From Lutibacter oricola (GTDB lineage: Bacteria; Bacteroidota; Bacteroidia; Flavobacteriales; Flavobacteriaceae): a DNA stretch of 64,000 nucleotides. Positions 3,570 to 42,622 of this stretch are shown piece after piece (positions within the stretch are counted from its first letter, which is position 1; every line of letters begins with the position of its first letter). The notes below the pieces were generated by a model. The model saw nothing but the letters and a program-made list of their open reading frames with translations. It did not search any database and was not told where the DNA came from. The DNA lies in NCBI RefSeq assembly GCF_900106565.1, contig NZ_FNNJ01000002.1, forward strand, positions 372,001 to 436,000, given 5' to 3'. The position numbers and the translations under genes are program-made.

Positions 3570-5195
3570 ATGAAAATAAAATTCTTTTTTGTGGTAATTA
3601 TGTTAACTTCAATAATTACCAATGCACAGAAAAAACCTAATGTTGTAATATTTTTTGCAGATGATATTAGTGCACGTGAAATTCCAATTTATAATTCATC
3701 TGTATGGTCAGATCCTTGGCGTGAAAATACTTCTGATGAAAAATACAGAGCAAAAACACCTAATTTAAATAAGTTGGCAAACGATGGCGTTTGGATAACT
3801 ACAGCTTGGGCGGCTACTGTTTGTAATCCAAGTAGATCAATGATGTTAAGTGGACGTTATGCTTACCAAACAAAATGGTGGAATAATAAAGATAAGGGTT
3901 ATGGTCCTGATGAAAATGGAAAAATTAACACGTGGCCTGTATATATGAGTTCACCAATTTTATTAGGTCATGCAGCTCAAAAAATGGGATATGGAACCTT
4001 TTGGGCAGGAAAAACGCAAATGGCTGGAAGTTATGAAAAACACGGTTTTGATGAAGGTTGTTTTACACCGGGAGGTTTACAAGATAAAGATAACCCGTAT
4101 GCCGATTTTAAACATGTTTACAAAAAAGTAAACGGAAAGCGTGTTTTAATAAATGTAGATACTGGAAAACCGGCTGATACCTATATGCAACACAGTTGGT
4201 ATTGGTATCCACACGTTAAGTTAATGAATCATCCATCTTCACCAAATGATAATTATGCTTGGTGGCCAAATACAAAAGAATCAAAAAAGAACTTTGGTTT
4301 ACATACATACGGACCTGATGTTGAATTAGAATTTGTGTTCGATTTTATGGAACGTCAACAAAAAGCAGATAAACCATTCTTTATTTACCATACTACGCAT
4401 TTAGGGCATGATGGATTTAATTGGTTTAATCCAGATGATGAAAGTTCGTGGCCGGGAACTCCAAAAGTAACTTGGGATGGCAAAAAATATACACGTCAAG
4501 AGCCTAAAATTACAGGTGATAAAGGAGTGTACAATACTCATAATAGTATAACCGAATCTGGTATGCACAGCCACGTTAATTATATAGATTATCAAGTTTG
4601 GTTATATCAACAGAAGTTTAAAGAACTTGGTGTTGAAGACAATACAATTTTTATTTTTGCTGCCGATAACGGAACTGGTGGTTATGGGAAAAATAAAGGA
4701 ATTCAACAAAGAGGATGTCATATACCATTAATTATTTATGCTCCAGGAATGAAAAAACAAGGAGAGCAAGATATATTAGTTAGTATTGCAGATGTTTTAC
4801 CAACTTTTGCCGATATGATTGGTTTTGAATTTCCAAAAGATTACAAATTAGATGGAAAAAGTTTAAAACCTTACTTATTTGGAGATAAAACTGAACATAG
4901 AAAATGGTTATATACGTATCGAGGACCAGAACAATTAGTTAGGGGTACAAAAGTTTTAAAAGATGGTGCAGATAAATGGTGGGATTTAACAAATTTCCCT
5001 AAAGATTTAACTAGTTATGATACTATTAAATGGGGAGAAGCTTCAAAAGAATTTAAAGCTGAAAAGAAAGAATTAATAAAAGTTTTACCACAGTACGATT
5101 TTTATTACGATGCATACAATGCACCAGGAGTAGATAAAATGCCTAAAAAGCGACCAAGGTATGCTCGTAAAAGCAAAGAGGATAAAGTTTATTAG
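3570..5195 (+). CDS. S1-type sulfatase (arylsulfatase family)
   Basis: A 541-residue secreted protein with a signal peptide (1-19, ITNAQ). The alkaline-phosphatase-like sulfatase fold is shown by the metal-binding FADD (residues 29-32), the formylglycine motif C85-N-P-S-R-S and the later IFAADNGTGG metal-binding segment. It should hydrolyse sulfate esters from a polysaccharide in the periplasm or at the surface after Cys85 is oxidised to formylglycine. The second signature, usually GKxH, reads GKTQ here. A long aromatic-rich insert precedes the active site (VWSDPWRENTSDEKYR). It stands alone, followed by a terminator. Three further catabolic genes plus a beta-helix protein follow at 6861-13091 and probably act on the same glycan. 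Substrate not determinable from sequence. Confidence 0.9.
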   Translation: MKIKFFFVVIMLTSIITNAQKKPNVVIFFADDISAREIPIYNSSVWSDPWRENTSDEKYRAKTPNLNKLANDGVWITTAWAATVCNPSRSMMLSGRYAYQTKWWNNKDKGYGPDENGKINTWPVYMSSPILLGHAAQKMGYGTFWAGKTQMAGSYEKHGFDEGCFTPGGLQDKDNPYADFKHVYKKVNGKRVLINVDTGKPADTYMQHSWYWYPHVKLMNHPSSPNDNYAWWPNTKESKKNFGLHTYGPDVELEFVFDFMERQQKADKPFFIYHTTHLGHDGFNWFNPDDESSWPGTPKVTWDGKKYTRQEPKITGDKGVYNTHNSITESGMHSHVNYIDYQVWLYQQKFKELGVEDNTIFIFAADNGTGGYGKNKGIQQRGCHIPLIIYAPGMKKQGEQDILVSIADVLPTFADMIGFEFPKDYKLDGKSLKPYLFGDKTEHRKWLYTYRGPEQLVRGTKVLKDGADKWWDLTNFPKDLTSYDTIKWGEASKEFKAEKKELIKVLPQYDFYYDAYNAPGVDKMPKKRPRYARKSKEDKVY

Positions 5196-5211
5196 TAGTA
5201 TAATAAATAAT

Positions 5212-5244
5212 AAAAAAGCTCAAATGAAAATTTGAGCTTTTTTA
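5212..5244 (+). terminator. Rho-independent terminator after sulfatase
   Basis: An inverted repeat AAGCTCAAAT / ATTTGAGCTT with a GAAA loop, flanked by A and T runs, lies just after the stop of the sulfatase at 5195. The stem is perfect, and its A/T symmetry would let it work in both directions. Confidence 0.8.
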
Positions 5245-5384
5245 TTCAATAAAGTTTATATTATCTGTCGAAAGTTCCTTTTTCTATTATACGAAAGGTA
5301 AATTCTTCTGGAAATTTCAGCAACTTAAAAATAATTTATAGTATAGTTATCTATGTCAATGCTATCAATTTTTAAATTAGAAAC

Positions 5385-5696
5385 TTATTTATTTACCTCT
5401 CCTATAATATTTTCTACAGATTTAATTTTTTTAGATAAGCAATCACTTTTACCTTTTCTAATATCAAATTTAAGAGAAGAGTATACTCTATCACAATCTG
5501 GTTCAAGTACATTATAACATTGCTGTACAATTGCTAGAGCTTCAGGTAAAGTTTCAGTTTCAATAATAGTTCCCATTGCGGTAAGTTGGTATGTAGCACC
5601 ACTATCACGTATTTGTTTTATTATTTTACTTACATAAGGACTAATACTTTCTCCTTTATTGGTTGGAAACATTGCAAATTCTAGTAGTACTGACAT
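5385..5696 (-). CDS. MTH1187/UPF0045 family thiamine-binding-like protein
   Basis: A 103-residue cytosolic protein of the MTH1187/YkoF-like family (UPF0045). The start (SVLLEFAMFPTNKGESISPYVSKII), the GATYQLTAMGTIIETE segment and the VYSSLKFDIRKG segment are characteristic. Family members are ferredoxin-like, oligomeric and thought to bind thiamine or related molecules; the cellular role is not well defined. It follows the YchJ-like gene on the same strand with a 56-base gap that holds a good -7 element, so it probably has its own promoter. No link to the flanking sulfatases is evident. Confidence 0.85.
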   Translation of the reverse strand: MSVLLEFAMFPTNKGESISPYVSKIIKQIRDSGATYQLTAMGTIIETETLPEALAIVQQCYNVLEPDCDRVYSSLKFDIRKGKSDCLSKKIKSVENIIGEVNK

Positions 5697-5718
5697 TTAT
5701 TTAATTAATTTTTGGTTA

Positions 5719-5752
5719 CAAAGATAAAGAAAGTGTTGGATTAAAGCAGCAA
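5719..5752 (-). promoter_or_regulatory. Promoter of the UPF0045 gene
   Basis: Read on the minus strand, TATCTTTG (5719-5726) matches the TAnnTTTG -7 consensus. A TTG (5750-5752) lies 23 bases upstream as a possible -33 element. The start codon at 5696 would be about 16 bases past the expected transcription start. Confidence 0.5.
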
Positions 5753-6118
5753 TTAATTGGCTCCTAAATACACCCAATGTTCATTTTCTTTAACAAATTT
5801 TGAGTTTTCGTAAATTACGTTTACAGCTCCATTTTCTAGAAAGAAGGCTTTAAATTCAACAGTATCTTCGGTTGAATTTAGTACTTCAAGTTTTAACCAG
5901 TTTACGGATTTTGTCCAAGATTCTATTTCTCTTTTTTCTTTTTTAGAAGGTCTAGTAGAGGAGTGATGACTTTTTTGAAGGTATGGAATGTTAGCTAAAA
6001 CAAAAGCACTATACCTTGAACGCATTAATTGTTCGACTGTAGTTACTGAATTTATATCTAGATGTGCTTTTTTGCAGCATTCAATGTATGTTTTGTTTGG
6101 ATTACAAGGGCATTGCAT
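5753..6118 (-). CDS. YchJ-family (UPF0225) protein with SEC-C motif
   Basis: A 121-residue protein beginning CPCNPNKTYIECCKKAH, an N-terminal SEC-C zinc-binding motif. The conserved EQLMRSRYSAFVLANIPYL, SWTKSVNWLKLEVL and EFKAFFLENG segments of the YchJ/UPF0225 family follow. Related proteins have a cystatin/NTF2-like body and no settled function. It lies 5 bases after the hypothetical gene at 6124-6483 on the same strand, so the two are probably co-transcribed. Confidence 0.85.
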   Translation of the reverse strand: MQCPCNPNKTYIECCKKAHLDINSVTTVEQLMRSRYSAFVLANIPYLQKSHHSSTRPSKKEKREIESWTKSVNWLKLEVLNSTEDTVEFKAFFLENGAVNVIYENSKFVKENEHWVYLGAN

Positions 6119-6123
6119 AGCTA

Positions 6124-6483
6124 TTAGTTTAAAAGTTGGTTTTCGTCCTTTATTCTAAAACATTTTTCTTCACCTAAAAATTTAGGGTCTCCAAATTCTT
6201 CAGACCAAAAGCCTTCTAAAATATCAGGAGAAAGACATTTATAAACAACAACACCATAATAAGGTTCATTGTCTTCACCTTGATAACTAAAGTTAATTAC
6301 TAAAATATTTTCCTTAAAAAATCCGGATCCAATTTGCTCTTGACTGTTACTTATTAGCCAGGTTGCTTGTATTCTATTATTTAAATCCAATTTTAAGGTA
6401 AGTGTGCCTTTATAATTGTTACCTGATGCATCTTGGTTATTTCCAATAATATTAAAGGAACCTGTAATATCTTTTATATTCAT
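6124..6483 (-). CDS. Hypothetical protein, beta-rich
   Basis: A 119-residue protein with no signal peptide. I do not recognise the family. Alternating hydrophobic and polar residues (GTLTLKLDLNNRIQATWLIS; NILVINFSYQG; YYGVVVYKCLS) and several glycines suggest a small beta-barrel, perhaps lipocalin-like. The GFWSEEFGDPKFLGEEKC stretch near the end is distinctive. It heads a two-gene unit with the YchJ-like gene 5 bases downstream, and a good -7 element lies about 55 bases before its start. Function unknown. Confidence 0.65.
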   Translation of the reverse strand: MNIKDITGSFNIIGNNQDASGNNYKGTLTLKLDLNNRIQATWLISNSQEQIGSGFFKENILVINFSYQGEDNEPYYGVVVYKCLSPDILEGFWSEEFGDPKFLGEEKCFRIKDENQLLN

Positions 6484-6860
6484 TATTTAAATATGGATAA
6501 TTTTATTTTGTTGTTTTTTACCTGTAGTTTAAAGTGCCAAAAGTAGTTTATATTTTCTTTTTATTTATTTATGAAATAAAATTTAGAACAATTGTTGTTA
6601 AAAAGAACTATAAAAAACACTTTTAAAACTGTAAAAAAACCATCTGTGTTTATTAAACAAATATTTTTGAAGCACTTAAATCATTTTTAATTGTTTACCT
6701 GTTAAAATTCCATTTTGTCGCTGTTTAGTGATTGTATATATAAATATAGACTCAAAGAAACATTTTCATTACTTAAAGAGACTATTTTTTTCTATTCTAA
6801 GCCTAATTTAGCTATAAGTTAAATAACCTTTTAATAAATAGAGATACAGATAATAGTCTT
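6484..6860. other. Intergenic region, divergent promoters expected
   Basis: About 377 AT-rich bases separate the minus-strand hypothetical gene and the sulfatase operon. One -7 element for the minus gene is visible (6538-6545). No convincing plus-strand promoter, operator or small open frame was recognised for the sulfatase operon, which must nevertheless start here. Confidence 0.4.
6538..6545 (-). promoter_or_regulatory. -7 element upstream of hypothetical gene
   Basis: On the minus strand this reads TACTTTTG, a full match to TAnnTTTG, giving a leader of about 48 bases before the ATG at 6483. No clear -33 element was seen. Confidence 0.4.
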
Positions 6861-8390
6861 ATGAAATACATATCAATTTTAGCTTCACTAATTATAATAT
6901 TAAGTGTTACAGGCTGTAAATCAAAAGTTGTAACTAAAAAACCGAATGTTATATTAATTTATGCAGATGATTTAGGTAGAGGATTACTTGGTACTTATGG
7001 GCAAGAAATAATTAAAACACCACATATAGATAAATTGGCTAATGAAGGTATAAGTTTTAAAAATGCTTATGGCTGTCATTATTGCGCACCAGCAAGAGCA
7101 AGTCTTTTAACCGGTATGCACGATGTTCGTCCAGGACAATGGAATATTACCAAAGGAGGTATTTACGAAAACCTTGATAATGGTATGACATTTCAAGAAA
7201 TAAAAGATTCGATTCATAAAATAGCACAACCAGCAAAAAAAGATGAAATATTTTTGGCGCAAGTTGCTAAAAAAGCTGGTTACACAACTGCCGAATTTGG
7301 AAAACTAGAATGGGGTTTTGCAACAACACCAGAAAGACTTGAGCGTCACGGTTGGGATTATCATTTCGGTTATTATGATCATCAACGTTGTCACGGATTT
7401 TACCCACCATTTTTATTCGAAAATGGTGAAAAAATTGATATTCCTGGAAATACACATTCAAATTGTGGAAAAACAAATAATGTAGAATCTGAAGAAGGAT
7501 ATAAAGATAGATGGGATATGACAGGTAAATCTTTTTATTCAGAAGATATTATTATGGAAAAATTGTTGGGTTATATAGATAATTATAGCGTAACAAAAGA
7601 AGATAAGCCGTTTTTTATGTTTTTTCCATCTCAATTACCTCATGGCCCAATTGCAATTCCTGAAGTTCATAAAGATTTTAAATATGATGAACGCTTAACA
7701 GAATTTGAAAAAGAATATGCTTCAATGGTAAAAATGTTAGATACGGATGTAGGTAGAATTGTAGCAAAATTAGATTCTTTAAAACTATTAGAAAATACCA
7801 TTATTGTTTTTGCTTCAGATAATGGGCACGAGGTTTATACGCAGCAAGTAGATAGAACTAATAAAGATGTGGATTTAACTTCAAACAAAAAATACGACAA
7901 TATTAAAACAAGATTTTTAAGTAATTTAAGTAACGATGTTTTTGATGGAAACAACGGAATGTCTGGATTAAAGCGTTCGAATTGGGAAGGAGGAACACGA
8001 GTTCCGTTAATTTGGTATTGGAAAGGAAAAATACAAAAAGGAGTGGTTTCAGAACAGCGTGTAGCTAATTACGATTTTTTAAATACGTTGGCAGAAATTG
8101 TAGGAGAAGAAGAATTAAAAGAAAAAGATGGAATTTCTTATGCAAAAACGTTGTTTGGAGAAAAAAGCGATGTACAACCATATATTGTTACAAATTCAAA
8201 AATTGGACCAGCATTGGTTACACAAGATGGTTGGAAACTACGATATAACCTTAAAAAAGATGTATTTCAATTGTACTTTCTTCCAGATGATTATAAAGAA
8301 TTAAATGAATTATCTGTTGGTAATTTAGATAAAGTAAAAGATTTAAAAGCAAAATTATTAATGGAATCGGGAGGTTCTTGGCATAAATAA
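6861..8390 (+). CDS. Lipoprotein S1-type sulfatase
   Basis: A 509-residue sulfatase with a lipoprotein signal (lipobox VTGC, Cys19), so it is probably anchored to a membrane, unlike the soluble-type signal of its neighbours. Metal-binding YADD (34-37) and the formylglycine motif C75-A-P-A-R are present, as is the later VFASDNGHE metal-site segment. The Ser of the usual CxPSR is Ala here, still within the CxPxR consensus. The GKxH signature reads GKLEWG. It heads a catabolic operon: 10 bases before the propeller protein, then another sulfatase and a beta-helix protein. Expected role: removal of a sulfate ester from a polysaccharide or oligosaccharide. Confidence 0.9.
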   Translation: MKYISILASLIIILSVTGCKSKVVTKKPNVILIYADDLGRGLLGTYGQEIIKTPHIDKLANEGISFKNAYGCHYCAPARASLLTGMHDVRPGQWNITKGGIYENLDNGMTFQEIKDSIHKIAQPAKKDEIFLAQVAKKAGYTTAEFGKLEWGFATTPERLERHGWDYHFGYYDHQRCHGFYPPFLFENGEKIDIPGNTHSNCGKTNNVESEEGYKDRWDMTGKSFYSEDIIMEKLLGYIDNYSVTKEDKPFFMFFPSQLPHGPIAIPEVHKDFKYDERLTEFEKEYASMVKMLDTDVGRIVAKLDSLKLLENTIIVFASDNGHEVYTQQVDRTNKDVDLTSNKKYDNIKTRFLSNLSNDVFDGNNGMSGLKRSNWEGGTRVPLIWYWKGKIQKGVVSEQRVANYDFLNTLAEIVGEEELKEKDGISYAKTLFGEKSDVQPYIVTNSKIGPALVTQDGWKLRYNLKKDVFQLYFLPDDYKELNELSVGNLDKVKDLKAKLLMESGGSWHK

Positions 8391-8400
8391 AATAATAAAA

Positions 8401-10080
8401 ATGAAAAAAATAATAGCAGCAATAGCAATTGCCTTGTTTCTAACTACTGGTGTAAGTGCACAAATTCAATACCGACCACTTCCTGCAGAATGGGAGAATT
8501 TGATTCCTGGAGGGAATTTTATGGACAGAATTTTACCAATGCCAAATGGTAAATTATCAAAAAATGTTTGGGGAGATAAAGGTGTTATTCCTCGTTTTGT
8601 TGATAATGGAGTTGAAGATGATACAATTTCTTGGTGGGGAGGAAATATTATAAAAGAATCTGAAAATAAATATCATTTTTTCCTTTGTGGTTGGGACGAA
8701 GATAACCCTGGAGGTCATATGGGATATAAGGATTATTCTATGATGTATCACGCAGTAAGTGATAATTCAATAGGGCCTTTTAAAGTAATAAAAGGACTTG
8801 GAGGAGGGCATAATACTGAAATACTACAATTAAAAAATGGAAAGTATATAATTTATCACGTTACAGGTCATGAAGTTGAAAAACATTGTAATTATTTAAT
8901 TTCAGATAGTTTAAATGGTCCTTGGGAAAAGCACACTTTTACAATGGATAATAGAGATCGAGAGCTACGTTTAGGAGGTGGAAATTGGTTTCATAATTTA
9001 AGCTTTACAAAGCGTGAAGATGGTTCTGTATTAATGTTAAGTCGTCAAGGTTCAATTTGGGTAAGTAAAACAGGAACAAGTCCTTATGAATTAATAACTA
9101 CAAAATGTATTTATCCAATGGTCGCAGGAAAATATGAAGACCCTGTTATTTGGAAAGATCATATTCAATACAATGCAATTGTAAACGATTGGATTGGTAG
9201 AACAGCATTTTATTTACGCTCAAAAGATGGAATTAATTGGATAATAGAAGATGGTAGAGCTTATGCAACAGGTGTTGCCGTTCATAAAGATGGCACCAAA
9301 GAAGATTGGTATAAATACGAACGCATTAGAATTCTTCAAGATGGATATGGTAGAGCAATACAAGCCAACTTTGCTGTAATTGATGCGAACAAACATGAAG
9401 ATTTACCTAACGACAATCATAGTTCTAAAAATATTGGCTTACCATTAAATCCAGGTATGTTAATTACCATAGAAAATAAATTACCATTTAATGTAAAAAC
9501 AAAAGAAATTAAAGTAAGAATTAAAGGTGAAGAAAATTTTAATCCTATTACTGAAATTGATGTTGAAACTCTTCGTTTTGGAGCTTCTTCTGAAGTAAAT
9601 TATGGAAGAGGAGCAATAGTTAAAAAAGTTGTACCTGAAGGAAACGATCTTATTGTAATATTCGAAGCGAAAAATCATTGTATAGATGAAGATGAATTTG
9701 CTCCAAAAATGTTAGGTAAAAACAAAAAAGGAGAAATGATTTTTGGATATGCACGTTTACCTTGGGTTAATTTTATTGAACCAATCTTATCTGCAAGAAA
9801 ACCTTTATTTAAAAATGAACAGTTAACAGTTGTTGTTGAAAATCACGGGCAAATAGCATCTAAACAAACTTTTTTAACGGTGTATGGTTACGGAGAAAAT
9901 GGAGTAGAGGAAGCTTGGGGCGAAGTAAAAGTGCCAGCTTTAAAAGCTTATGGAAAAGAAGAATTAGAAATAAAGTTAGATAAAAATTTAGCGAAAGGTA
10001 AAGAATACCCAGTAGTAGTAAAAATAATGTCTAGAACTGTAAAGCCTATTTTATTTAATATCACAATTATTAAAAAATAA
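8401..10080 (+). CDS. Secreted beta-propeller glycoside-hydrolase-like protein
   Basis: A 559-residue protein with a signal peptide (1-20, GVSAQ). The first 360 residues show repeated strands and segments typical of five-bladed propeller glycosidases of the GH43/GH32/GH117 kind: DTISWWGGNIIKE, KYHFFLCGWDEDNPGG, SMMYHAVSDNSIGPFK, GGGHNTEILQLKNGKYIIYH and YEDPVIWKDHIQYNAIVNDW. The last 190 residues look like one or two beta-sandwich domains. The exact family is not recognised. Lying between two sulfatase genes (10 bases after the first, 11 before the next), it probably cleaves the same sulfated glycan after or together with desulfation. Hydrolase activity is inferred from fold and context only. 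Confidence 0.6.
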   Translation: MKKIIAAIAIALFLTTGVSAQIQYRPLPAEWENLIPGGNFMDRILPMPNGKLSKNVWGDKGVIPRFVDNGVEDDTISWWGGNIIKESENKYHFFLCGWDEDNPGGHMGYKDYSMMYHAVSDNSIGPFKVIKGLGGGHNTEILQLKNGKYIIYHVTGHEVEKHCNYLISDSLNGPWEKHTFTMDNRDRELRLGGGNWFHNLSFTKREDGSVLMLSRQGSIWVSKTGTSPYELITTKCIYPMVAGKYEDPVIWKDHIQYNAIVNDWIGRTAFYLRSKDGINWIIEDGRAYATGVAVHKDGTKEDWYKYERIRILQDGYGRAIQANFAVIDANKHEDLPNDNHSSKNIGLPLNPGMLITIENKLPFNVKTKEIKVRIKGEENFNPITEIDVETLRFGASSEVNYGRGAIVKKVVPEGNDLIVIFEAKNHCIDEDEFAPKMLGKNKKGEMIFGYARLPWVNFIEPILSARKPLFKNEQLTVVVENHGQIASKQTFLTVYGYGENGVEEAWGEVKVPALKAYGKEELEIKLDKNLAKGKEYPVVVKIMSRTVKPILFNITIIKK

Positions 10081-10091
10081 CAAAATTGAAT

Positions 10092-11624
10092 ATGATGAAA
10101 ATTAGTTTTAAAAATATAATTCTTTTTACAACAGTTTTAATATTTGGGTTTGCAGGTAATTCACAATCTTTAAAAAATTCTAAGCCAAATATTATTTTGG
10201 TTATGACAGATGATCAAGGTTTGGTGTTAGGTTCTTTAGGACATCCAGTTGTGAAAACTCCATTTTTAGATAAGTTTGCTGAGAAATCTGTACGTTTTAC
10301 AAACTTTTATATGAGTCCTAATTGTGCGCCTTCAAGAGCGGCTTTAATGAGTGGTGCTCATGAGTTTAGAGCTGCAGTTACAGCAACTCATAATGAGTGT
10401 GAACGAATGGCTTTAGATATTACAACGTTTCCAGAGTTATTGCAACAACAAGGCTATGAAACGGGATTATTTGGTAAATGGCATTTAGGAGATTTAAATG
10501 AATATTTACCGCAAAATAGAGGTTTTTCAGAAGTGCTAATGCACGGTGCAGGAGGAATTGGTCAAAGAGAAAAAGGAAAAAAAATAACAAGTTATGCCGA
10601 TTTTCCACCTAATCAAGGTGAGAAAAAAAATGCCAAATATTTTAACCCAGTTTTATTACACAATAATACAATTGTGCAAACTAAGGGATATTGTACAGAT
10701 ATATTTTTTAATGCTGGGTTGGCTTGGATAAAAGAGCAAAAGGAAAAGAAAAAACCATTTTTCGCCTACATTTCTACCAACGCGCCACATTCACCCTTAA
10801 TTGCTCCAAAAGAAAATTTGGATAGAATGTTAAAACGTGGAATGAAAAAAGCCGAACCAAGGTTAGCAATGATTGAAAATATTGATGACAATTTTGGTGT
10901 TATGATGGAAAAATTGGAAAGATGGGATATGTTAGATAATACCATAATAATTTTCACCTCAGATAATGGAGCGCCAGGTTCAGATCCTAATTTTATTCAA
11001 GGTCATAAAACTGGTAAAGGAACTCCGTTTGAGGGTGGTGTTCATGTGCCTGCATTTTGGTATTGGAAAGGTAAAATAAAAGAAAATGTAAGCGTAGATG
11101 TTCTAACAGCTCATATAGATTTGTATAAAACTTTTTGTGAATTAACTGGAGCAGATAATTCTAAAGTAAAACAAAAATTAGAAGGTAGAAGTTTATTACC
11201 ATTACTTGAAAATGCTAACTCAGAATGGAAACCAAGAATAATTCAAACTCAAAGAGGAAATATAGCTAAAAACCCAAAAGATTCGTCTAATAAAATGTGG
11301 TCGGTAAGAACTGATCGTTGGAGACTTGTTGGAAAAGAATTATATGATCTTAAAAATGATCCTTATGAGCAAAATGATGTAGCAAAAGAATACCCATTTG
11401 TAGTAAGTGAGTTAGCAAAGTCTCATTTTGAATGGTATGAAACTATGATTCCTTATATGATTAACCAAAATAATGTTTGGACAGATCCTTTGGCTCCATT
11501 AGAAAAATTATACTACGATCAAAAGGCTAAAAAAGGAATTCCAAATTGGCAACCAGCAAATACTGATGAGAAAGATATATTGAAAGATGGCCTTTCTGAT
11601 TGGAAAAGAAATACACTAGATTAA
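10092..11624 (+). CDS. S1-type sulfatase
   Basis: About 510 residues from the ATG at 10092; a TTG two codons earlier is less likely. A signal peptide ends near GNSQ. This is the most canonical of the three sulfatases: metal-binding MTDD, formylglycine motif C-A-P-S-R in NCAPSRAALMSG, second signature GKWHLGD, and the late FTSDNGAPG segment. A C-terminal subdomain follows with WSVRTDRWRLVGKELYDLKNDPYEQNDVA, the usual sulfatase tail. It is third in the operon, 11 bases after the propeller protein and 147 bases before the beta-helix gene. Exo- or endo-specificity and substrate cannot be read directly. Confidence 0.92.
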   Translation: MMKISFKNIILFTTVLIFGFAGNSQSLKNSKPNIILVMTDDQGLVLGSLGHPVVKTPFLDKFAEKSVRFTNFYMSPNCAPSRAALMSGAHEFRAAVTATHNECERMALDITTFPELLQQQGYETGLFGKWHLGDLNEYLPQNRGFSEVLMHGAGGIGQREKGKKITSYADFPPNQGEKKNAKYFNPVLLHNNTIVQTKGYCTDIFFNAGLAWIKEQKEKKKPFFAYISTNAPHSPLIAPKENLDRMLKRGMKKAEPRLAMIENIDDNFGVMMEKLERWDMLDNTIIIFTSDNGAPGSDPNFIQGHKTGKGTPFEGGVHVPAFWYWKGKIKENVSVDVLTAHIDLYKTFCELTGADNSKVKQKLEGRSLLPLLENANSEWKPRIIQTQRGNIAKNPKDSSNKMWSVRTDRWRLVGKELYDLKNDPYEQNDVAKEYPFVVSELAKSHFEWYETMIPYMINQNNVWTDPLAPLEKLYYDQKAKKGIPNWQPANTDEKDILKDGLSDWKRNTLD

Positions 11625-11771
11625 ATAAATGTATTTGTGTTTTAACTTAAAGAAACATGTAACATATTCATAAAGACAACGAAATGTTTAAGTATAAATA
11701 ATTTCAAAGCGTTATTATAGAACATCTTCTATTTAACAAAAAATGATAATTCAAATTAAAAAAAATAGATA

Positions 11772-13091
11772 ATGATTAGAAAATTATTTGGAATGTTGGT
11801 ATTGTGTTTAGCTTTTTCAACAGTAAATGCACAATATAAAGAAGTAATGAACCCTAAAGGGTTTACGGTAAACCTTAAAAAAGATTATGGCTTAAAAGAT
11901 GACAATGCTAAAAATAATCAAAGCTATAAATTAAGAAAAGCAATTGGTGAGGTTAATGCAAAAGGAGGAGGAAACATTGTAATTCCAAAAGGAGTTTATA
12001 GTTTGTCTTCAATTTATTTAAAATCTAATGTGCATATTTTAATTGAAGCAGGAACGGTTATTAAACCAATGTTAGGCGAAGGTGTGGTTTTCAATTTATC
12101 TACAGATAAAAAAGATGAAAAGAAAAACCCTAAATTGTTTGTTGAAAATGTGAGTGTTAGAGGAAAAGGTGGAGCTTTTATTATAGATTATCATACAAGA
12201 AAATATAAAGATAGACAAAGAGCTATTATTGGTAAAATGGTGAAAAATTTTCTGATTCAAGATATGATTGTAAAAGATAATTATTCGGTTTTTTGTGGAA
12301 TTACTTTAGCACCTTCAAACGAAAAAGTAAAAGATGTTTCAAATTGGGAAGTATCTCGTCCAACATTTGGAACTATTAAAAATATAACCCATTATAAAGC
12401 AAGTCCAGGTTATGGTTTGGTACAATGTCACGGAGCTCAAAATGTTCATTTCGAAAATTTATATGCTGAAGGTGGAGTTTCCTTTAGATTAGAAGTTGGT
12501 GCTAATAATAAAAATGTTGGAGTTTATGATTTAACAGCAAAAAACATTATTAATAAAAATGGTAGATGTGCAGTAATGTTAGGGCCACATTCAGCTAAAA
12601 ATGGAATTATTAAAGTGGATGGTGTTAAGTCAATTAGTTCAACATTTGCAGTTACAGTTGGAGATGGTGGCGTAAAAAAAGATGCACCAGATCAAACACC
12701 AGGTTATTTTCATAAGGATTCTTCAATAGATAATATTGTAGCGATTTATGGTAAATCGGCTCAAGTAAAAGGACCTACGTTCTTAGAGTATCCAAAAGTG
12801 TCGGATTATTTTGAACATTTAAAAGTGTTTTCTGATGGTAAGTTTTATGAAGGCCCAGCAGTAACAGCTGTTCATTATGGACCAACAACTTATAACATAA
12901 AAATAGGGAAGAATATTAAGATGGAAGGATTTCCTCATATGAATGATAAACCAATTGTAACCAGAGCAGATAAAAGAAAAGAAAGTTGGGGAGCAGAGAA
13001 AAAATTTTGGAAAAAAGCACATCCAGGTGATGAATTTGTTTTAGATAAAGGAGTTGTTGTAAAAGATTATGCTGTTAAAGCATATTTCTAA
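11772..13091 (+). CDS. Beta-helix protein resembling GH82 iota-carrageenase
   Basis: A 439-residue secreted protein (signal 1-20, TVNAQ) with a right-handed beta-helix pattern. Several blocks closely resemble GH82 iota-carrageenases as I remember the Alteromonas enzyme: LKSNVHILIEAGTVIKP (83-99), GYGLVQCHGAQNVHFENL (213-230), YAEGGVSFRLEVG (231-243) and AVMLGPHSAKNG (267-278). In GH82 the catalytic pair is Glu and Asp two residues apart in the third block. Here Glu241 is present, but the Asp position is Gly243. Gln218 and His273 match other active-site residues. Either activity is changed, another base is used, or it is a binding protein. It follows three sulfatases, consistent with sulfated galactan use. 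A decayed partial copy lies just downstream. Confidence 0.6.
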   Translation: MIRKLFGMLVLCLAFSTVNAQYKEVMNPKGFTVNLKKDYGLKDDNAKNNQSYKLRKAIGEVNAKGGGNIVIPKGVYSLSSIYLKSNVHILIEAGTVIKPMLGEGVVFNLSTDKKDEKKNPKLFVENVSVRGKGGAFIIDYHTRKYKDRQRAIIGKMVKNFLIQDMIVKDNYSVFCGITLAPSNEKVKDVSNWEVSRPTFGTIKNITHYKASPGYGLVQCHGAQNVHFENLYAEGGVSFRLEVGANNKNVGVYDLTAKNIINKNGRCAVMLGPHSAKNGIIKVDGVKSISSTFAVTVGDGGVKKDAPDQTPGYFHKDSSIDNIVAIYGKSAQVKGPTFLEYPKVSDYFEHLKVFSDGKFYEGPAVTAVHYGPTTYNIKIGKNIKMEGFPHMNDKPIVTRADKRKESWGAEKKFWKKAHPGDEFVLDKGVVVKDYAVKAYF

Positions 13092-17709: not shown

Positions 17710-18063
17710 ATGAATCATAAAGAGTTAGATGTTTGGAAGAAAAGTATGGATTTGGTTGAAATAATTTATGTTTTAACTAAAAGTTTTCCAGATGATGAAA
17801 AATTTGGATTGATATCTCAAATGAGAAGATGTGTAGTTTCCATACCATCAAATATTGCTGAAGGAGCAGGTAGAAAAGGTAATAAAGAATTTATACAGTT
17901 TCTACACATTGCTTTAGGTTCATTAGCAGAATTAGAAACACAGTATTTGATTGCTGATAGATTAAAATATATTAAAATGAATGAAGAGGTAATTACTAAA
18001 TTGAATGATGTTAAAAGGTTATTGTTAGGATTTAGAAATTATTTGATGAAAAGTGAAAAGTGA
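17710..18063 (+). CDS. Four-helix-bundle protein (23S rRNA intervening-sequence type)
   Basis: A 117-residue protein of the S23/TIGR02436 four-helix-bundle family. The characteristic blocks are LDVWKKSMDLVEIIYVLTKSFP, DDEKFGLISQMRRCVVSIPSNIAEGAGR, EFIQFLHIALGSLAELETQ and a final helix LNDVKRLLLGFRNYL. Relatives include proteins encoded in 23S rRNA intervening sequences and the Avd accessory proteins of diversity-generating retroelements. Free-standing copies are frequent in Bacteroidota and have no settled role. No reverse transcriptase is nearby. It sits between wzm and wzt next to dispersed repeats and short direct repeats (AGTTAGAAGA near 17671 and 18072), which suggests insertion into an older wzm-wzt pair. 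Confidence 0.85.
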   Translation: MNHKELDVWKKSMDLVEIIYVLTKSFPDDEKFGLISQMRRCVVSIPSNIAEGAGRKGNKEFIQFLHIALGSLAELETQYLIADRLKYIKMNEEVITKLNDVKRLLLGFRNYLMKSEK

Positions 18064-38093: not shown

Positions 38094-39095
38094 ATGCAAT
38101 TTAGTTTAATCATTTGTACATACCAGCGCCCAAAGGCTTTATTGAATTTATTGAATTCTATTCAAGATCAAAAAATGTATCCAAATGAAATTATTATTGT
38201 TGATGGTTCTAGAGATAATAAAACAAAAGATTTAGTTCAAGAATATAAATTTGAAAACCTATATTATTTTAAAGTAGAAGATAAAGATAGAGGTCTTACC
38301 AGACAAAGAAATTATGGTATTTCAAAGGTTACTCAAGATTCTGAAGTTGTTTGTTTTTTAGATGATGATACATATTTAAAAAAAGATTATTTTAAAAATT
38401 TAATAGAAGTATTTAAAAGGAATCAAGAAATTTTTGGAGTTGGAGGAGTAGCCATCAATGAAAATAGATGGATAAAAAAAGATTATGAAAAATCTTATTC
38501 TAATAAAAAATATTTTGAATTTGAAAATTATGTAGTGGAAAGAGGAAGCAGGCATATTTTAAGAAATCATTTAGGGTTAGGATCAAATAAACTACCAGGT
38601 AATATGCCTGAATTTTCACATGGAACATCATACAGTTATCCACTAAATGGTAAGTTTTATGAAGTAGATTTGTTAATAGGTATGTCTATGTCTTTTCGAA
38701 AACAAGTTACAGATTCTATAAAATTTTCAACTTATTTTGAAGGCTATGGTTTGTATGAAGATGCAGATTATTCTTTAAGAGCTATAGAATTTGGAAAAAA
38801 TGTGATAGCTACAAATGTTTGTTTAAGGCATTTTCATGAAGCTACAGGACGTCCAAATAAGTATAACTATGGGAAAATGGTAGTGCGTAATGGATGGTAT
38901 GTTTGGCGTATAAAATATCCAAAGCCTAAATTGGAAGCACGTTTAAAATGGAATGTAATAATTTGGTTGTTAATTTTTATAAGATTGGGTAATGTAATTA
39001 CTACAAAAAAAAAGAAAGGAGCATTTACTGAAGCATTAGGAAGAATTGTTGGTTGGTTTTCATTATTTTTGAATAAACCTAAAGTAGAAAGGTAA
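38094..39095 (+). CDS. GT2 family glycosyltransferase
   Basis: A 333-residue transferase with a GT-A domain: QFSLIICTYQRPKALLNLLNSIQDQ, IIIVDGSRDNKT, KDRGLTRQRNYGI, the metal-binding FLDDDTYLKKDYF and the acceptor-side FEGYGLYEDADYSLRAIEFG. A conserved HFHEATGRPNKYNYGKMVVRN segment and a short hydrophobic stretch (LKWNVIIWLLIFIRLGNVI) near the end suggest membrane association. It lies between a GT2 gene and the repeat-invaded GT gene. Confidence 0.85.
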   Translation: MQFSLIICTYQRPKALLNLLNSIQDQKMYPNEIIIVDGSRDNKTKDLVQEYKFENLYYFKVEDKDRGLTRQRNYGISKVTQDSEVVCFLDDDTYLKKDYFKNLIEVFKRNQEIFGVGGVAINENRWIKKDYEKSYSNKKYFEFENYVVERGSRHILRNHLGLGSNKLPGNMPEFSHGTSYSYPLNGKFYEVDLLIGMSMSFRKQVTDSIKFSTYFEGYGLYEDADYSLRAIEFGKNVIATNVCLRHFHEATGRPNKYNYGKMVVRNGWYVWRIKYPKPKLEARLKWNVIIWLLIFIRLGNVITTKKKKGAFTEALGRIVGWFSLFLNKPKVER

Positions 39096-39101
39096 CTCTC
39101 T

Positions 39102-40715
39102 ATGAAGTTTACAATTATTACACATGCCGAACATAAATTAAAGCAAGATTATATCTATGCGTACGAGCCGTATGTAAAAGAAATGAACTTATGGTTAAAG
39201 TTTGTGGATGAGGTTGAGATTGTAGCTCCAGTTTCAACTAAAGAAATTTCAAAAATAGATACGCGATATAAATGCCATTCTGAACGCAGTGAAGGATCTG
39301 TAACTAAGAAAGCTGAGATGCTGAATCAAGTTAAGCATGACGGAATGGTAGTTGCATTACCTTGTAATGACGAAATCAAATGTCATTCTGAATGCAATGA
39401 AGAATCTGTAAATAGAAATATTAGATGTAAATCAATTAATTTAAATAAAATCCCATCATTCAATATAACTTCAACAAAAAATAGTCTAAATGCACTATTT
39501 AAAATCCCTTCTATTCTATGGGAAATCTATAAAGCAATGCAAGGAGCAGATCATATTCATTTGCGTTGTCCTGGTAATATAGGTTTGTTAGGCTGTTTGG
39601 TGCAAGTTTTATTCCCCTCAAAACCAAAAACAGTAAAGTATGCCGGTAACTGGGACCCAAAAAGTAAACAGCCATTAAGTTACAAATTTCAAAAATGGAT
39701 AGTATCTAATACTTTTTTAAGTAAAAATTGTAAAGTGTTGGTGTATGGAAATTGGCCAAATCAGTCTAAAAACATTATCCCTTTTTTTACAGCAAGTTAT
39801 TCTGAAAAGGAAATAGAGGAGGTTGAAATCAAAACTTTACGTCATTGCGGATCGAACTGTCATTCCGTGCTTGACACGGAATCTTTAGAAAGTGAACAAC
39901 AGATTTCCAATCGAGTTGGAAATGACGAGTTTGGACGTCATTCCGTACTTAACACGGTATCTTTAGGAAGTGATGATGAGATGCTGAAACAAGTTCAGCA
40001 TGACGAATCGGAACGTTATACTCAGCTCGACAAAACAGCACGGCATCCTCGGCTAGACTTGGGATCTCATGAGTTAGAACAAAAGAAACAGATTTCCAAT
40101 CGAGTTGGAAATGACGAAAAGAAGAATCTGGATAAATCGGTCACTGAGCGAAGTCGAAGTGAAATATATGGAACACTAAACCCAATCAAATTTTTATTTG
40201 TGGGCGGATTTACAAAAGGAAAACAACCATTACTCTCCGTAAAAGTGGTACATGAACTTTTCAAAAAAAGCTATAAAGTAACATTAGAAATGTATGGAGA
40301 TGGTCTAGAAAAGAATTACGTAGAAAACTATATAAAAGAACATAATTTAGAAAAGATTATAAAACTTCATGGGAATCAACCAAAAGGTATTGTAAAAGAA
40401 GCATATCAACAAGCTCATTTTTTAGTTTTTATATCAAAGTCTGAAGGCTGGCCTAAAGTAGTTGCAGAAGCTATGTTTTGGGGATGTGTTCCTATTTCGA
40501 GTAATGTTTCTTGTGTTTCAAGTATGTTGGGAGATGGAGAAAGAGGGAGTATCGTAAATCCAGCTATTGAAGAAATAGTAGAGGAGATAACATCTTATTT
40601 TAAAAGCCCAACAGTATATCAACAAAAAGCTAAAAAAGCAATGGATTGGTCTAGAACTTATACCTTAGAAAAATTTGAACGTGAGATTGGGAAGTTACTT
40701 AAGTCATTCCCTTGA
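39102..40715 (+). CDS. GT-B glycosyltransferase with in-frame dispersed-repeat insertions
   Basis: A 537-residue open frame. The flanking parts are an ordinary GT4-like enzyme: start KFTIITHAEHKLKQDYIYAYEPY, ADHIHLRCPGNIGLLG, VKYAGNWDPKSKQPLSYKFQKW, then IKFLFVGGFTKGKQPLLSVKVV and the donor-binding SKSEGWPKVVAEAMFWGCVPISSNVSC. Two stretches, about residues 57-106 and 246-355, are encoded by the same palindromic repeats found between genes (CHSERSEGSV, EMLNQVKHD, CHSVLDTESLE, ISNRVGNDE, MLKQVQHDE, SVTERSRSE). Without them the protein is about 380 residues, the usual GT4 length. The frame stays open through both. The second insertion is where the two Rossmann domains would be linked, so the enzyme might still fold. 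Confidence 0.85.
   Translation: MKFTIITHAEHKLKQDYIYAYEPYVKEMNLWLKFVDEVEIVAPVSTKEISKIDTRYKCHSERSEGSVTKKAEMLNQVKHDGMVVALPCNDEIKCHSECNEESVNRNIRCKSINLNKIPSFNITSTKNSLNALFKIPSILWEIYKAMQGADHIHLRCPGNIGLLGCLVQVLFPSKPKTVKYAGNWDPKSKQPLSYKFQKWIVSNTFLSKNCKVLVYGNWPNQSKNIIPFFTASYSEKEIEEVEIKTLRHCGSNCHSVLDTESLESEQQISNRVGNDEFGRHSVLNTVSLGSDDEMLKQVQHDESERYTQLDKTARHPRLDLGSHELEQKKQISNRVGNDEKKNLDKSVTERSRSEIYGTLNPIKFLFVGGFTKGKQPLLSVKVVHELFKKSYKVTLEMYGDGLEKNYVENYIKEHNLEKIIKLHGNQPKGIVKEAYQQAHFLVFISKSEGWPKVVAEAMFWGCVPISSNVSCVSSMLGDGERGSIVNPAIEEIVEEITSYFKSPTVYQQKAKKAMDWSRTYTLEKFEREIGKLLKSFP
39270..39417. repeat. Dispersed repeats inserted in a glycosyltransferase gene, site 1
   Basis: Contains TGCCATTCTGAACGCAGTGA..GGATCTGT, the module GATGCTGAATCAAGTTAAGC (a variant of the GCTGAAACAAGTTCAGC hairpin) and TGTCATTCTGAATGCAATGA..GAATCTGT. 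The first and last modules are alike and bracket the middle one. The insert falls in the N-terminal half of the glycosyltransferase and keeps the frame. Confidence 0.8.
39837..40166. repeat. Dispersed repeats inserted in a glycosyltransferase gene, site 2
   Basis: About 330 bases holding at least seven modules: GTCATTGCGGATCG; GTCATTCCGTGCTTGACACG; CAGATTTCCAATCGAGTTGG (twice, near 39900 and 40090); GTCATTCCGTACTTAACACG; GATGCTGAAACAAGTTCAGC; GGCATCCTCGGCTAGACTTG; and GTCACTGAGCGAAGTCGAAG. Most are imperfect hairpins. Modules 39976-40018 match 41258-41300 almost exactly in the same order. The reading frame is uninterrupted. Confidence 0.85.
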
Positions 40716-40738
40716 AAAAGAGAATTTTTAGATAAAGA

Positions 40739-40815
40739 GTTACAGATTTCCAATCAAGTTGGAAATGACGAATTAGACCGTCATTCCCAGCTCGACTGGG
40801 AATCTTTCCCTTCGA
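40739..40815. repeat. Dispersed repeats upstream of GIY-YIG gene
   Basis: CAGATTTCCAATCAAGTTGG then GTCATTCCCAGCTCGACTGG with GAATCTTT. Both are hairpin modules (TTCCAA/TTGGAA and ATTCCC/GGGAAT) of the family also present inside the preceding glycosyltransferase gene. They end about 20 bases before the GIY-YIG start. Confidence 0.8.
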
Positions 40816-40833: not shown

Positions 40834-41124
40834 ATGAAAGAAAGTTATATTTACATATTAAGTAATAAAAATCATACTGTTTTATATATTGGAGTCACAT
40901 CAAATTTAAAAGATAGAATCCAACAGCATAAAAATGGAACGGGTTCAATTTTCACTAAAAAGTATAATATAGTTATGTTAATGTATTTTGAAACTTTTAC
41001 AAATATTAACGAAGCGATTAAAAGAGAAAAACAACTGAAGAAATGGAATAAGAAATGGAAATGGGAATTGATCCAAAGTATTAATCCACAATTAAAAGAT
41101 TTGTATCAAGATTTAATACACTAA
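40834..41124 (+). CDS. GIY-YIG nuclease family protein
   Basis: A 96-residue single-domain GIY-YIG protein of the small COG2827 (UPF0213-like) group. SYIYILSNKNHTVLYIG (residues 4-20) carries the two Tyr-Ile motifs. Arg28 in TSNLKDRIQQH and Glu65 in AIKREKQLKKW are the expected catalytic positions. The C-terminal WELIQSINPQLKDLY is also typical. The family includes DNA nucleases, but free-standing members have no established role. It sits between glycosyltransferase genes and is bracketed at 40739-40815 and 41124-41410 by the dispersed repeats, which suggests it entered the locus with them. Confidence 0.88.
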   Translation: MKESYIYILSNKNHTVLYIGVTSNLKDRIQQHKNGTGSIFTKKYNIVMLMYFETFTNINEAIKREKQLKKWNKKWKWELIQSINPQLKDLYQDLIH

Positions 41125-41410
41125 CGTCATTGCCTTGAAATAGGGCATCTTTATATAAAGAGTTACAGGTTTCCAATCAAGTTGGAAATGAAGAAAAGAA
41201 GATTCAGTAAAATTTGGTCACTGAGTGGAGTCGAAGTGATACTATGAAAATGAAGATGAGATACTGAAACAAGTTCAGCATGACGAATCGGAGAGTTATC
41301 CTCTGTTTGGCCGGGCATCTTTAGAAAAAGAGTTACAGATTTCCAATCAAATTGGAAATGACGGAATATACAGATTAACGTCATCCCCTTGAAAAAGGGA
41401 ATCTTTTTGA
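41124..41410. repeat. Dispersed repeat cluster downstream of GIY-YIG gene
   Basis: Seven modules in about 290 bases: GTCATTGCCTTGAAATAGGG; CAGGTTTCCAATCAAGTTGG; GTCACTGAGTGGAGTCGAAG; GATACTGAAACAAGTTCAGC with the following bases as at 39976; GGGCATCTTTAG; CAGATTTCCAATCAAATTGG; GTCATCCCCTTGAAAAAGGG. All have relatives inside the glycosyltransferase gene at 39102. The gap to the next gene (41411-41527) shows nothing else recognisable. The cluster has no convincing open frame. Confidence 0.85.
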
Positions 41411-41527
41411 GATGAAGTTATGATTTTTAAACATGTTGAAAATGATGATTAAAAGATATTGAGAAATATAAAATAGTTTGGTTTTTTATGAGTAGCCATT
41501 ATATCTTTTTCATTAAATTTGAATCGA

Positions 41528-42622
41528 ATGAAAGAGCAGTTAAAAGTAATACAAATAATAGATTCTTTAACTCCAGGAGGAGCAGAAATGATGGCGGTAA
41601 ACATTGCCAATGGGCTTTCAAGAAAAGGAGTTGATTCCTATTTATGTTCTACTAGAAAAGAAGGACTTTTAAAAAGTAAAATTTCAGGAAATGTTAAATA
41701 TTTGTTTTTAAAAAAGAAGCAGACGCTAGGCATATATTCATTTAGAAGATTATATAGATTTATTAAAAAAGAAAAAATTAATATTATTCACGCACATTCT
41801 TCTTCTATTTTTATAGGTTTTTTAATGAAGTTATGGAATCCTAAATTGACGTTAATTTGGCACGACCATTATGGAAAAAGTGAAACCTTAGAAAATAGAA
41901 AATCAGATATATTAAAAGTTTTAGCTAAAAAAATAAATTTTGTTATTGTTGTAAATGATTTATTGTATCAATGGAACAAAAAAGCATTAAGAGTTAAAAA
42001 TGTTGTAAACCTCTCCAATTTTGCAAGCATAAATAAACAAACAAAAGAAGTAATTAAGCTTAAAGGAGAGGAAGGAAAGCGTATAGTTTGCTTGGCAAAT
42101 TTTAGACCACAAAAAGATCATATAAATTTATTAAAGGCATTTAAAATTATTCATCAAGATTTTAACGATTGGACATTACATTTAGTAGGTCTAGATTTAA
42201 ATGATGAATATTCAGATAGTATAAAAGGTTTTATAAAAACGAATAAATTGACAGCGGCCATTTTTAGTTATGGAAGTGTTGAAAATACCTTTGAAGTTCT
42301 AGAACAAGCAACTATTGGCGTTTTAGCTTCAAAATCAGAAGGTTTACCAGTTAGTTTATTGGAGTATGGTTTAGCTAAATTACCTGTTGTAGTTACCAAT
42401 GTAGGAGATTGTAACAAACTAATTTCTAATAATGATACAGGGTTGTTAGTGCCTCCAAATAATAAACTAGCATTAGGGGAAGCATTGAAAGAGCTAATTA
42501 TAAATTCTACTAGAAGAAAACTATTTGCCGAAAATCTAAATTCATTAATAGTTAAAAAATATTCAGAAGACAGTTATTTAGATAAGTTGATAGCTGTATA
42601 TTTGAAAACTAATGACGAATAA
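41528..42622 (+). CDS. GT4 family glycosyltransferase
   Basis: About 364 residues from the ATG at 41528; a TTG three codons earlier is less likely. GT-B pattern: VIQIIDSLTPGGAEMMAVNIANGLSRKGV (acceptor loop), INIIHAHSSSIFIGFLM, LANFRPQKDHINLLKAFKII, and the donor block LASKSEGLPVSLLEYGLAKLPVVVTNVGDCNKLI. It resumes the locus after the repeat-GIY-YIG interruption and overlaps the O-antigen polymerase/ligase gene by 11 bases. Confidence 0.9.
   Translation: MKEQLKVIQIIDSLTPGGAEMMAVNIANGLSRKGVDSYLCSTRKEGLLKSKISGNVKYLFLKKKQTLGIYSFRRLYRFIKKEKINIIHAHSSSIFIGFLMKLWNPKLTLIWHDHYGKSETLENRKSDILKVLAKKINFVIVVNDLLYQWNKKALRVKNVVNLSNFASINKQTKEVIKLKGEEGKRIVCLANFRPQKDHINLLKAFKIIHQDFNDWTLHLVGLDLNDEYSDSIKGFIKTNKLTAAIFSYGSVENTFEVLEQATIGVLASKSEGLPVSLLEYGLAKLPVVVTNVGDCNKLISNNDTGLLVPPNNKLALGEALKELIINSTRRKLFAENLNSLIVKKYSEDSYLDKLIAVYLKTNDE

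Follow-up and report, generated by a model that had tools for sequence, protein, structure and literature searches.

Two loops of a Lutibacter glycosyltransferase as likely long-standing landing sites for in-frame CGTC palindromes

The DNA analyzed here (the window) is a stretch of 64,000 nucleotides from Lutibacter oricola, taken from a 4.12-Mb genome whose closest relatives are Lutibacter, in the family Flavobacteriaceae. An initial annotation had described a glycosyltransferase gene within the window that stays open throughout while containing two blocks of palindromic repeats, of about 150 and 330 bases. Both observations held, as the gene, here called GTx, is uninterrupted over its 537 codons and the blocks measured 153 and 336 nt. 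GTx lies downstream of a GT2 gene and is followed by a small GIY-YIG nuclease gene and a GT4 gene (Table 1). The polysaccharide region that holds GTx also contains a gene for a four-helix bundle protein of the TIGR02436 family (17710-18063). Elsewhere in the window, a cluster of sulfatase-like genes read from the open reading frames (3570-13091) is probably a sulfated-polysaccharide utilization locus.

Table 1. Features of the GTx locus, in window coordinates
Feature	Position	Strand	Evidence or remark
GT2 gene adjoining GTx 5′, uninvaded	38094..39095	+	Syntenic in orthologous loci
GTx, GT4/GT-B glycosyltransferase gene, 537 aa, two in-frame palindrome-derived inserts	39102..40715	+	ORF, Pfam, AF2, VIA-align, synteny
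Site 1 insert, ~residues 58-108, ~51 aa (153 nt) above 16-aa family loop	39273..39425	+	Loop-length alignment, modules, pLDDT
CGTC palindrome, MLNQVKHD frame	39318..39341	-	Strict detector, phase analysis
Site 2 insert, ~residues 246-358, ~112 aa (336 nt) above 22-aa family loop	39837..40175	+	Loop-length alignment, pLDDT
Opposed CGTC dimer (+39859, -39903; start-to-start 44 nt), read HSVLDTE ... ISNRVGND	39859..39926	.	Detector
Second dimer (degenerate +39937, -39981; 44 nt), read HSVLNTV ... MLKQVQHD	39937..40004	.	Detector
CGTC palindrome, ISNRVGND	40092..40115	-	Detector
Palindrome GTCACTGAGCGAAGTCGAAGTGA, read VTERSRSE	40140..40162	.	~12 copies in genome
E448...E456, invariant; the GT4 E-x7-E motif	40443..40469	+	Invariant columns; 3′ of both inserts, in frame
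CGTC palindromes in the gap from GTx to GIY-YIG gene; dimer spaced 43 nt, phase-incompatible	40703..40803	.	Intergenic
Small GIY-YIG nuclease gene, 96 aa, CGTC palindromes on both flanks	40834..41124	+	PF01541 (E 5.5e-17), flank survey, tree
CGTC palindrome cluster 3′ of GIY-YIG gene	41120..41402	.	Intergenic, related modules
Downstream GT4 gene, uninvaded	41519..42622	+	Syntenic

Pfam placed the GT4 C-domain of GTx at residues 360-512 (PF00534, E 8.9e-24; PF13692 also matched). The AF2 model had a GT-B fold with pLDDT mostly 85-98, and VIA-align superimposed it on the GT4 structure 6eji over 336 residues (Z 27.9, rmsd 4.0). With two Rossmann domains in a GT-B fold and a Glycos_transf_1 C-domain carrying E-x7-E, GTx is a member of the GT4/GT-B group. 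The outer parts of the gene had been expected to encode a normal transferase of about 380 residues, and subtraction of the inserts in the orthologue loop alignment left 374, the usual family size being ~370-375. The model also agreed with the proposed positions of the inserts, as site 1 sits in a loop of the N-domain and site 2 in the linker joining the N- and C-domains. Values of pLDDT below 50 occurred only within the inserts (residues 63-80, 89-104, and 253-358), predicted disordered segments that leave the GT-B fold itself intact. We conclude that GTx is, judged by its sequence, a functional enzyme of a polysaccharide operon.

Palindromic modules occupy 39276-39407 at site 1 and 39859-40163 at site 2. 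A strict detector of CGTC palindromes, which demanded a GTC tag, an 8-bp stem beginning with AT, and a loop of usually 5 nt, found 14 elements in the window versus 1.5 expected from shuffled sequence, and 11 of the 14 fell at 39.3-41.4 kb. The stems of these elements are 8 bp and the loops 5 nt in 11 of 14 and 4 nt in the remainder; the GTC tag is common to all detected elements by design of the detector, and the base preceding it is C in most (for example at 39937 and 40780, and at 39903, 39981, and 40092 on the reverse strand). The site 1 insert comprises modules read as CHSERSEGS, MLNQVKHD, and CHSECNEES, and the two dimers at site 2 together form a 78-nt (26-codon) direct repeat that is 72% identical. 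Consistent with the report that hairpin modules of the same kind lie between nearby genes, related ones were found at 40703-40803 and 41122-41402. No Rfam family matched in the window. The module read as MLKQVQHD has ~40 copies across the genome, nearly all of them intergenic. All five near-exact copies of the ISNRVGND(E) module, by comparison, are in the GTx locus rather than genome-wide, and this confinement speaks for local spread.

A census of the genome covered matches similar to the site 2 insert. Among the 55 repeat matches checked, in-frame internal copies were present in GTx (~10 units), in trpF (1 or 2), and in an mvaD-like gene (1), and the remainder were intergenic or in spurious frames. 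GTx is by far the most loaded gene of its genome; that it is the sole invaded gene is ruled out by the units in the other two. The in-frame, palindrome-derived segment of trpF is SLSGVEVTYNENINNVISTPLNRQ, possibly joined by SFLRRQESN near the end (L028 1199-1912; G000:C54:70314), and the trp region holds several more repeat copies. The gene that we take from its sequence to be mvaD-like carries its one unit as KERNSKLVSESHPSDF (L170 1276-2415; G000:C51:1103165). Across three operons, 28 palindromes lay within GTx and none of that type in the adjacent operon genes. Moreover, when 299 genomes of the family (236 genera) were queried with some of the modules and frames, the module peptide gave a long open frame in GTx alone, the remaining matches being short frames, many with stops.

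Relatives of GTx were collected by drawing on 198 genomes together with GTDB contigs. The gene order GT2-GTx-GT4-Wzy-GT4 is common to Lutibacter and other genera, which indicates that the relatives are orthologues. Loop lengths were constant in 49 insert-free orthologues, at 14-16 aa for site 1 and 21-24 aa for site 2, and all of these came from other genera with the sole exception of one Lutibacter member, G028. The corresponding loops of GTx in the window are 67 and 134 aa. Among 14 other Lutibacter orthologues, site 2 measured 37-225 aa and site 1 measured 16-286 aa, exceeding the family length in eight (19-286 aa); the value for G019, in which GTx is split over two contigs, is a minimum for site 1. 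Insert-bearing Lutibacter proteins thus range from ~400 to over 900 aa. The initial annotation had asked whether the inserts are absent from all relatives and had named close homologues with related sequence at the sites as contrary evidence. Orthologues from other genera lack the inserts, but such homologues do exist within Lutibacter, where arrays of this class, differing in content, are found in the 14 other orthologues. In every affected orthologue the inserts occupy the identical two loops, and repeat units vary by species while the core is conserved.

An insert at site 2 is present in 15 of 16 Lutibacter orthologues. In a tree of the core, carriers of a site 1 insert are nested inside carriers of a site 2 insert, such that all insert-bearing Lutibacter orthologues, as one clade, share the site 2 insert and a subclade of them shares that at site 1, a pattern that fits one founding event per site. 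The insert-free G028 clusters with other genera in the same tree and may therefore never have lost an insert. The units found in tandem measured 39, 78, 84, and 240 bp, each a multiple of 3. The 240-bp unit was seen in GTx of Lutibacter sp. HS1-25, where ~6 tandem repeats lie to either side of a break between contigs (L100 5318-6743, L032).

All 58 palindromes detected in Lutibacter GTx genes, which are partly non-independent through tandem duplication and amount to an effective ~10 lineage/site combinations, used a single codon phase per orientation that was hydrophilic and free of stops. Elements on the plus strand are read as HPELVSG, HSAPDAE, or HPQLDWG, and those on the minus strand as MLKQVQHD or IPNQVGND. 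A second stop-free frame of the plus elements, which is hydrophobic and of the VILNLFQN type, was never the one used; the GRAVY of the two plus frames is -1.0 (used) versus +1.1 (unused). The inserts have a GRAVY of -0.6 to -1.7, and the core ~-0.1 to -0.3. Stops are absent from the coding frame of the inserts and nearly always present in the alternative frames. Moreover, dimer spacing was 2 mod 3 in 13 of 13 cases within GTx and mixed outside the gene. When G020 was left out, as its spacing is 50 almost throughout, spacing was 2 mod 3 in 8 of 8 intragenic dimers versus 3 of 14 outside (Fisher p = 5e-4). An open frame alone is weak coding evidence, because G020 has an intergenic array 3′ of GTx that likewise runs open through 239 codons (L063 6997-7713). 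In G032, G009, and G021, the inserts are still in frame and no palindromes were detected in them. We conclude that the phase constraint points to translation of the inserts, which by this evidence are probably both translated and tolerated.

In seven Lutibacter genomes, GTx and GT4 have the GIY-YIG gene between them. Three affected species (L. maritimus, L. agarilyticus, and G032) are without an adjacent copy, which indicates that the site does not at present require one. In L. agarilyticus, a different small nuclease-like reading frame, presumably resembling DUF559, takes the GIY-YIG position and is flanked by the palindrome CCCCTCTCAAGAGGGG (L062 7190-8298). In a survey of 40 small-GIY-YIG loci taken irrespective of repeats, CGTC palindromes occurred at 1.5/kb within 200 bp of the gene versus 0.07/kb at 3-8 kb. 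Within Lutibacter, 17 of 65 small GIY-YIG genes were flanked on both sides; these belonged mainly to two clades with one palindrome type each, and other clades had almost none. In a wider sample of the family from other genomes, 14 of 29 loci had palindromes on either flank, frequently at a distance of 11-30 bp from the match. Opposed CGTC palindromes were seen to bracket the GIY-YIG genes of L209, L219, L222, L223, L228, L237, L239, L240, and L255. A Y1/RAYT transposase was ruled out as the mobilizer, as the genome that contains the window has no PF01797 match. We conclude that the GIY-YIG gene of the window is a probable partner of the CGTC repeats and, with its bracketed counterparts, a candidate for their dedicated nuclease, which may mobilize them. 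A 2025 paper in Nature Communications reportedly describes the Ssn family, GIY-YIG site-specific nucleases of single-stranded DNA with the NTS repeat of Neisseria as their target, a repeat that we take to be a CGTC-type palindrome. The window gene is a candidate counterpart, sharing with Ssn a small GIY-YIG protein tied to a CGTC-type palindromic repeat.

We consider it likely that GTx offers two long-standing safe landing pads for CGTC palindromes within a functional Lutibacter glycosyltransferase. One founding insertion per site would have entered a tolerant loop, after which further insertions and tandem duplications there would be nearly neutral, and arrays would snowball. Purifying selection would purge frameshifts, stops, and hydrophobic frames. 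A local repeat/nuclease pair was probably the supplier of the repeats, as the GIY-YIG gene is directly 3′ in seven species and its clade is bracketed by cognate palindromes throughout Flavobacteriaceae.

That 15 of 16 Lutibacter orthologues retain a site 2 insert despite their deep divergence could mean that the insert is useful and not just tolerated. One such explanation is adaptive variation, in which variable disordered loops alter acceptor choice, partner binding, or polysaccharide structure and the palindromes are the source of diversity. Consistent with adaptation, GTx alone is loaded among the genes of its operon, the site 2 insert has been kept despite sequence turnover, and the phase is strictly hydrophilic. 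Plain tolerance, however, equally predicts inserts that are hydrophilic, disordered, and frame preserving; moreover, the inserts have no conserved motif, and G008 has far shorter loops (19 and 50 aa) with a normal core. We regard adaptive variation as unlikely. A stronger version, that CGTC palindromes and the GIY-YIG nuclease are a mobile pair recruited in Lutibacter to diversify the two GTx loops by in-frame insertion, we hold to be decidedly unlikely. If true, it would amount to a repeat-driven diversity generator for a surface-polysaccharide glycosyltransferase and to an analogue of REP/RAYT built on another kind of nuclease.

Alternatively, the hairpins could be kept as RNA or DNA, for mRNA processing, attenuation, or nuclease binding, with translation a side effect or with the hairpins skipped in decoding. 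The transcript would hold local hairpins and a cognate nuclease gene adjoins, but the insert RNA was not found to be more stable than shuffled sequence (z -0.36), the palindromes have decayed in the three genomes whose inserts are nonetheless in frame, and the phase constraint favors translation. A nucleic acid function is thus a very improbable account of the inserts. The large size of the inserts and their origin in mobile repeats might instead suggest a decaying pseudogene that is still open by chance. Pairwise omega across the core is 0.09-0.25 among insert-bearing orthologues, indicating purifying selection, which rules out a pseudogene. Furthermore, the catalytic E-x7-E of the C-domain is intact 3′ of both inserts, and the gene is in frame and open in 15 Lutibacter species within a conserved operon. 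Decay is scarcely tenable and, by the sequence data, already refuted, barring a very recent end of selection in the window strain. An artifact in which assembly or annotation collapsed or misjoined repeats into GTx has a negligible chance of being right, for although a 240-bp tandem array in GTx of G019 marks the point where the gene is broken across two contigs, 14 other assemblies have the identical architecture, which speaks against a frame error, and both flanks of each insert encode the same protein in frame.

The favored reading, two landing pads in a functional enzyme, draws on phenomena that are in part already known, namely palindromes inserted in frame and repeats of the CGTC class. 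Most descriptions of the former concern scattered events in Rickettsia-like genomes. New, judged against the literature that could be searched, is a hotspot that recurs throughout a genus at two sites of a single enzyme, strict in phase and subject to turnover, beside a repeat-paired GIY-YIG gene; a search found no literature on these module peptides or on Lutibacter repeats. GTx provides ~15 natural replicates in one gene and one genus with insert-free orthologues as controls, such that the rules of tolerance (loop, phase, and residues) are directly measurable, and it constitutes a natural experiment in selfish DNA turning into protein.

The CGTC-tagged REP superfamily takes in the Rickettsia palindromic elements (RPEs) and repeats of Bacteroidetes (Di Nocera 2013, PMC3733652). 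Its members have a CGTC or TGTC tag, an 8-bp stem starting with AT, and a 5-nt loop, form opposed dimers, and are mostly intergenic and in some cases intragenic; clusters were called rare, the larger repeat-encoded segments were 43-82 aa, and a dedicated transposase was not found (PMC3733652). The class is marked by an unpaired tag at one end (CGTC, TGTC, or CCTC), an 8- to 9-bp stem with A-T first pairs, and a 4- to 5-nt loop, and the window elements belong to it. Opposed dimers, which predominate in the class, are present, but the large clusters at the GTx locus and in G020 depart from the description as rare. The arrays lengthen GTx of the window by ~51 and 112 aa, with larger additions in relatives, and a clade of GIY-YIG genes is tightly paired with the palindromes. 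That clade-specific pairing bears on what mobilizes CGTC repeats, a question posed in the same work (PMC3733652).

The resemblance to RPEs drawn in the initial annotation stood as to CGTC class and in-frame insertion, but not as a fresh invasion by elements known from Rickettsia. In the case of gmk, a gene with a coding palindrome of this type gives a product that is translated and active (PMC2229807). Like RPEs and other coding palindromes (Wolbachia, Methanocaldococcus jannaschii), those of GTx are short mobile palindromes in frame at tolerated, unstructured sites of conserved genes. The Lutibacter elements share the CGTC class with RPEs and not the family, as RPEs are 105-146 bp and lie in frame in many genes of Rickettsia, whereas here one heavily and two lightly loaded genes were found in 55 matches. 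RPEs are single elements spread over many genes; Lutibacter, which belongs to a different phylum (Bacteroidota), has multiunit arrays at two fixed sites of one gene, GTx, and these arrays turn over from species to species and add as many as several hundred residues. REP/RAYT (TnpA-REP) systems similarly combine a small nuclease gene bracketed by palindromes with many nonautonomous copies, but their nuclease is of the HUH tyrosine type and the one here is GIY-YIG. Finally, PARCEL repeats are palindromic, protein coding, and expandable, with 75-nt units encoding amphipathic 25-aa domains that are expressed in lipoproteins (PMC2996958). By description, the GTx repeats are likewise palindromic, coding, and expandable, and differ from PARCEL in being inserts in the loops of an enzyme.
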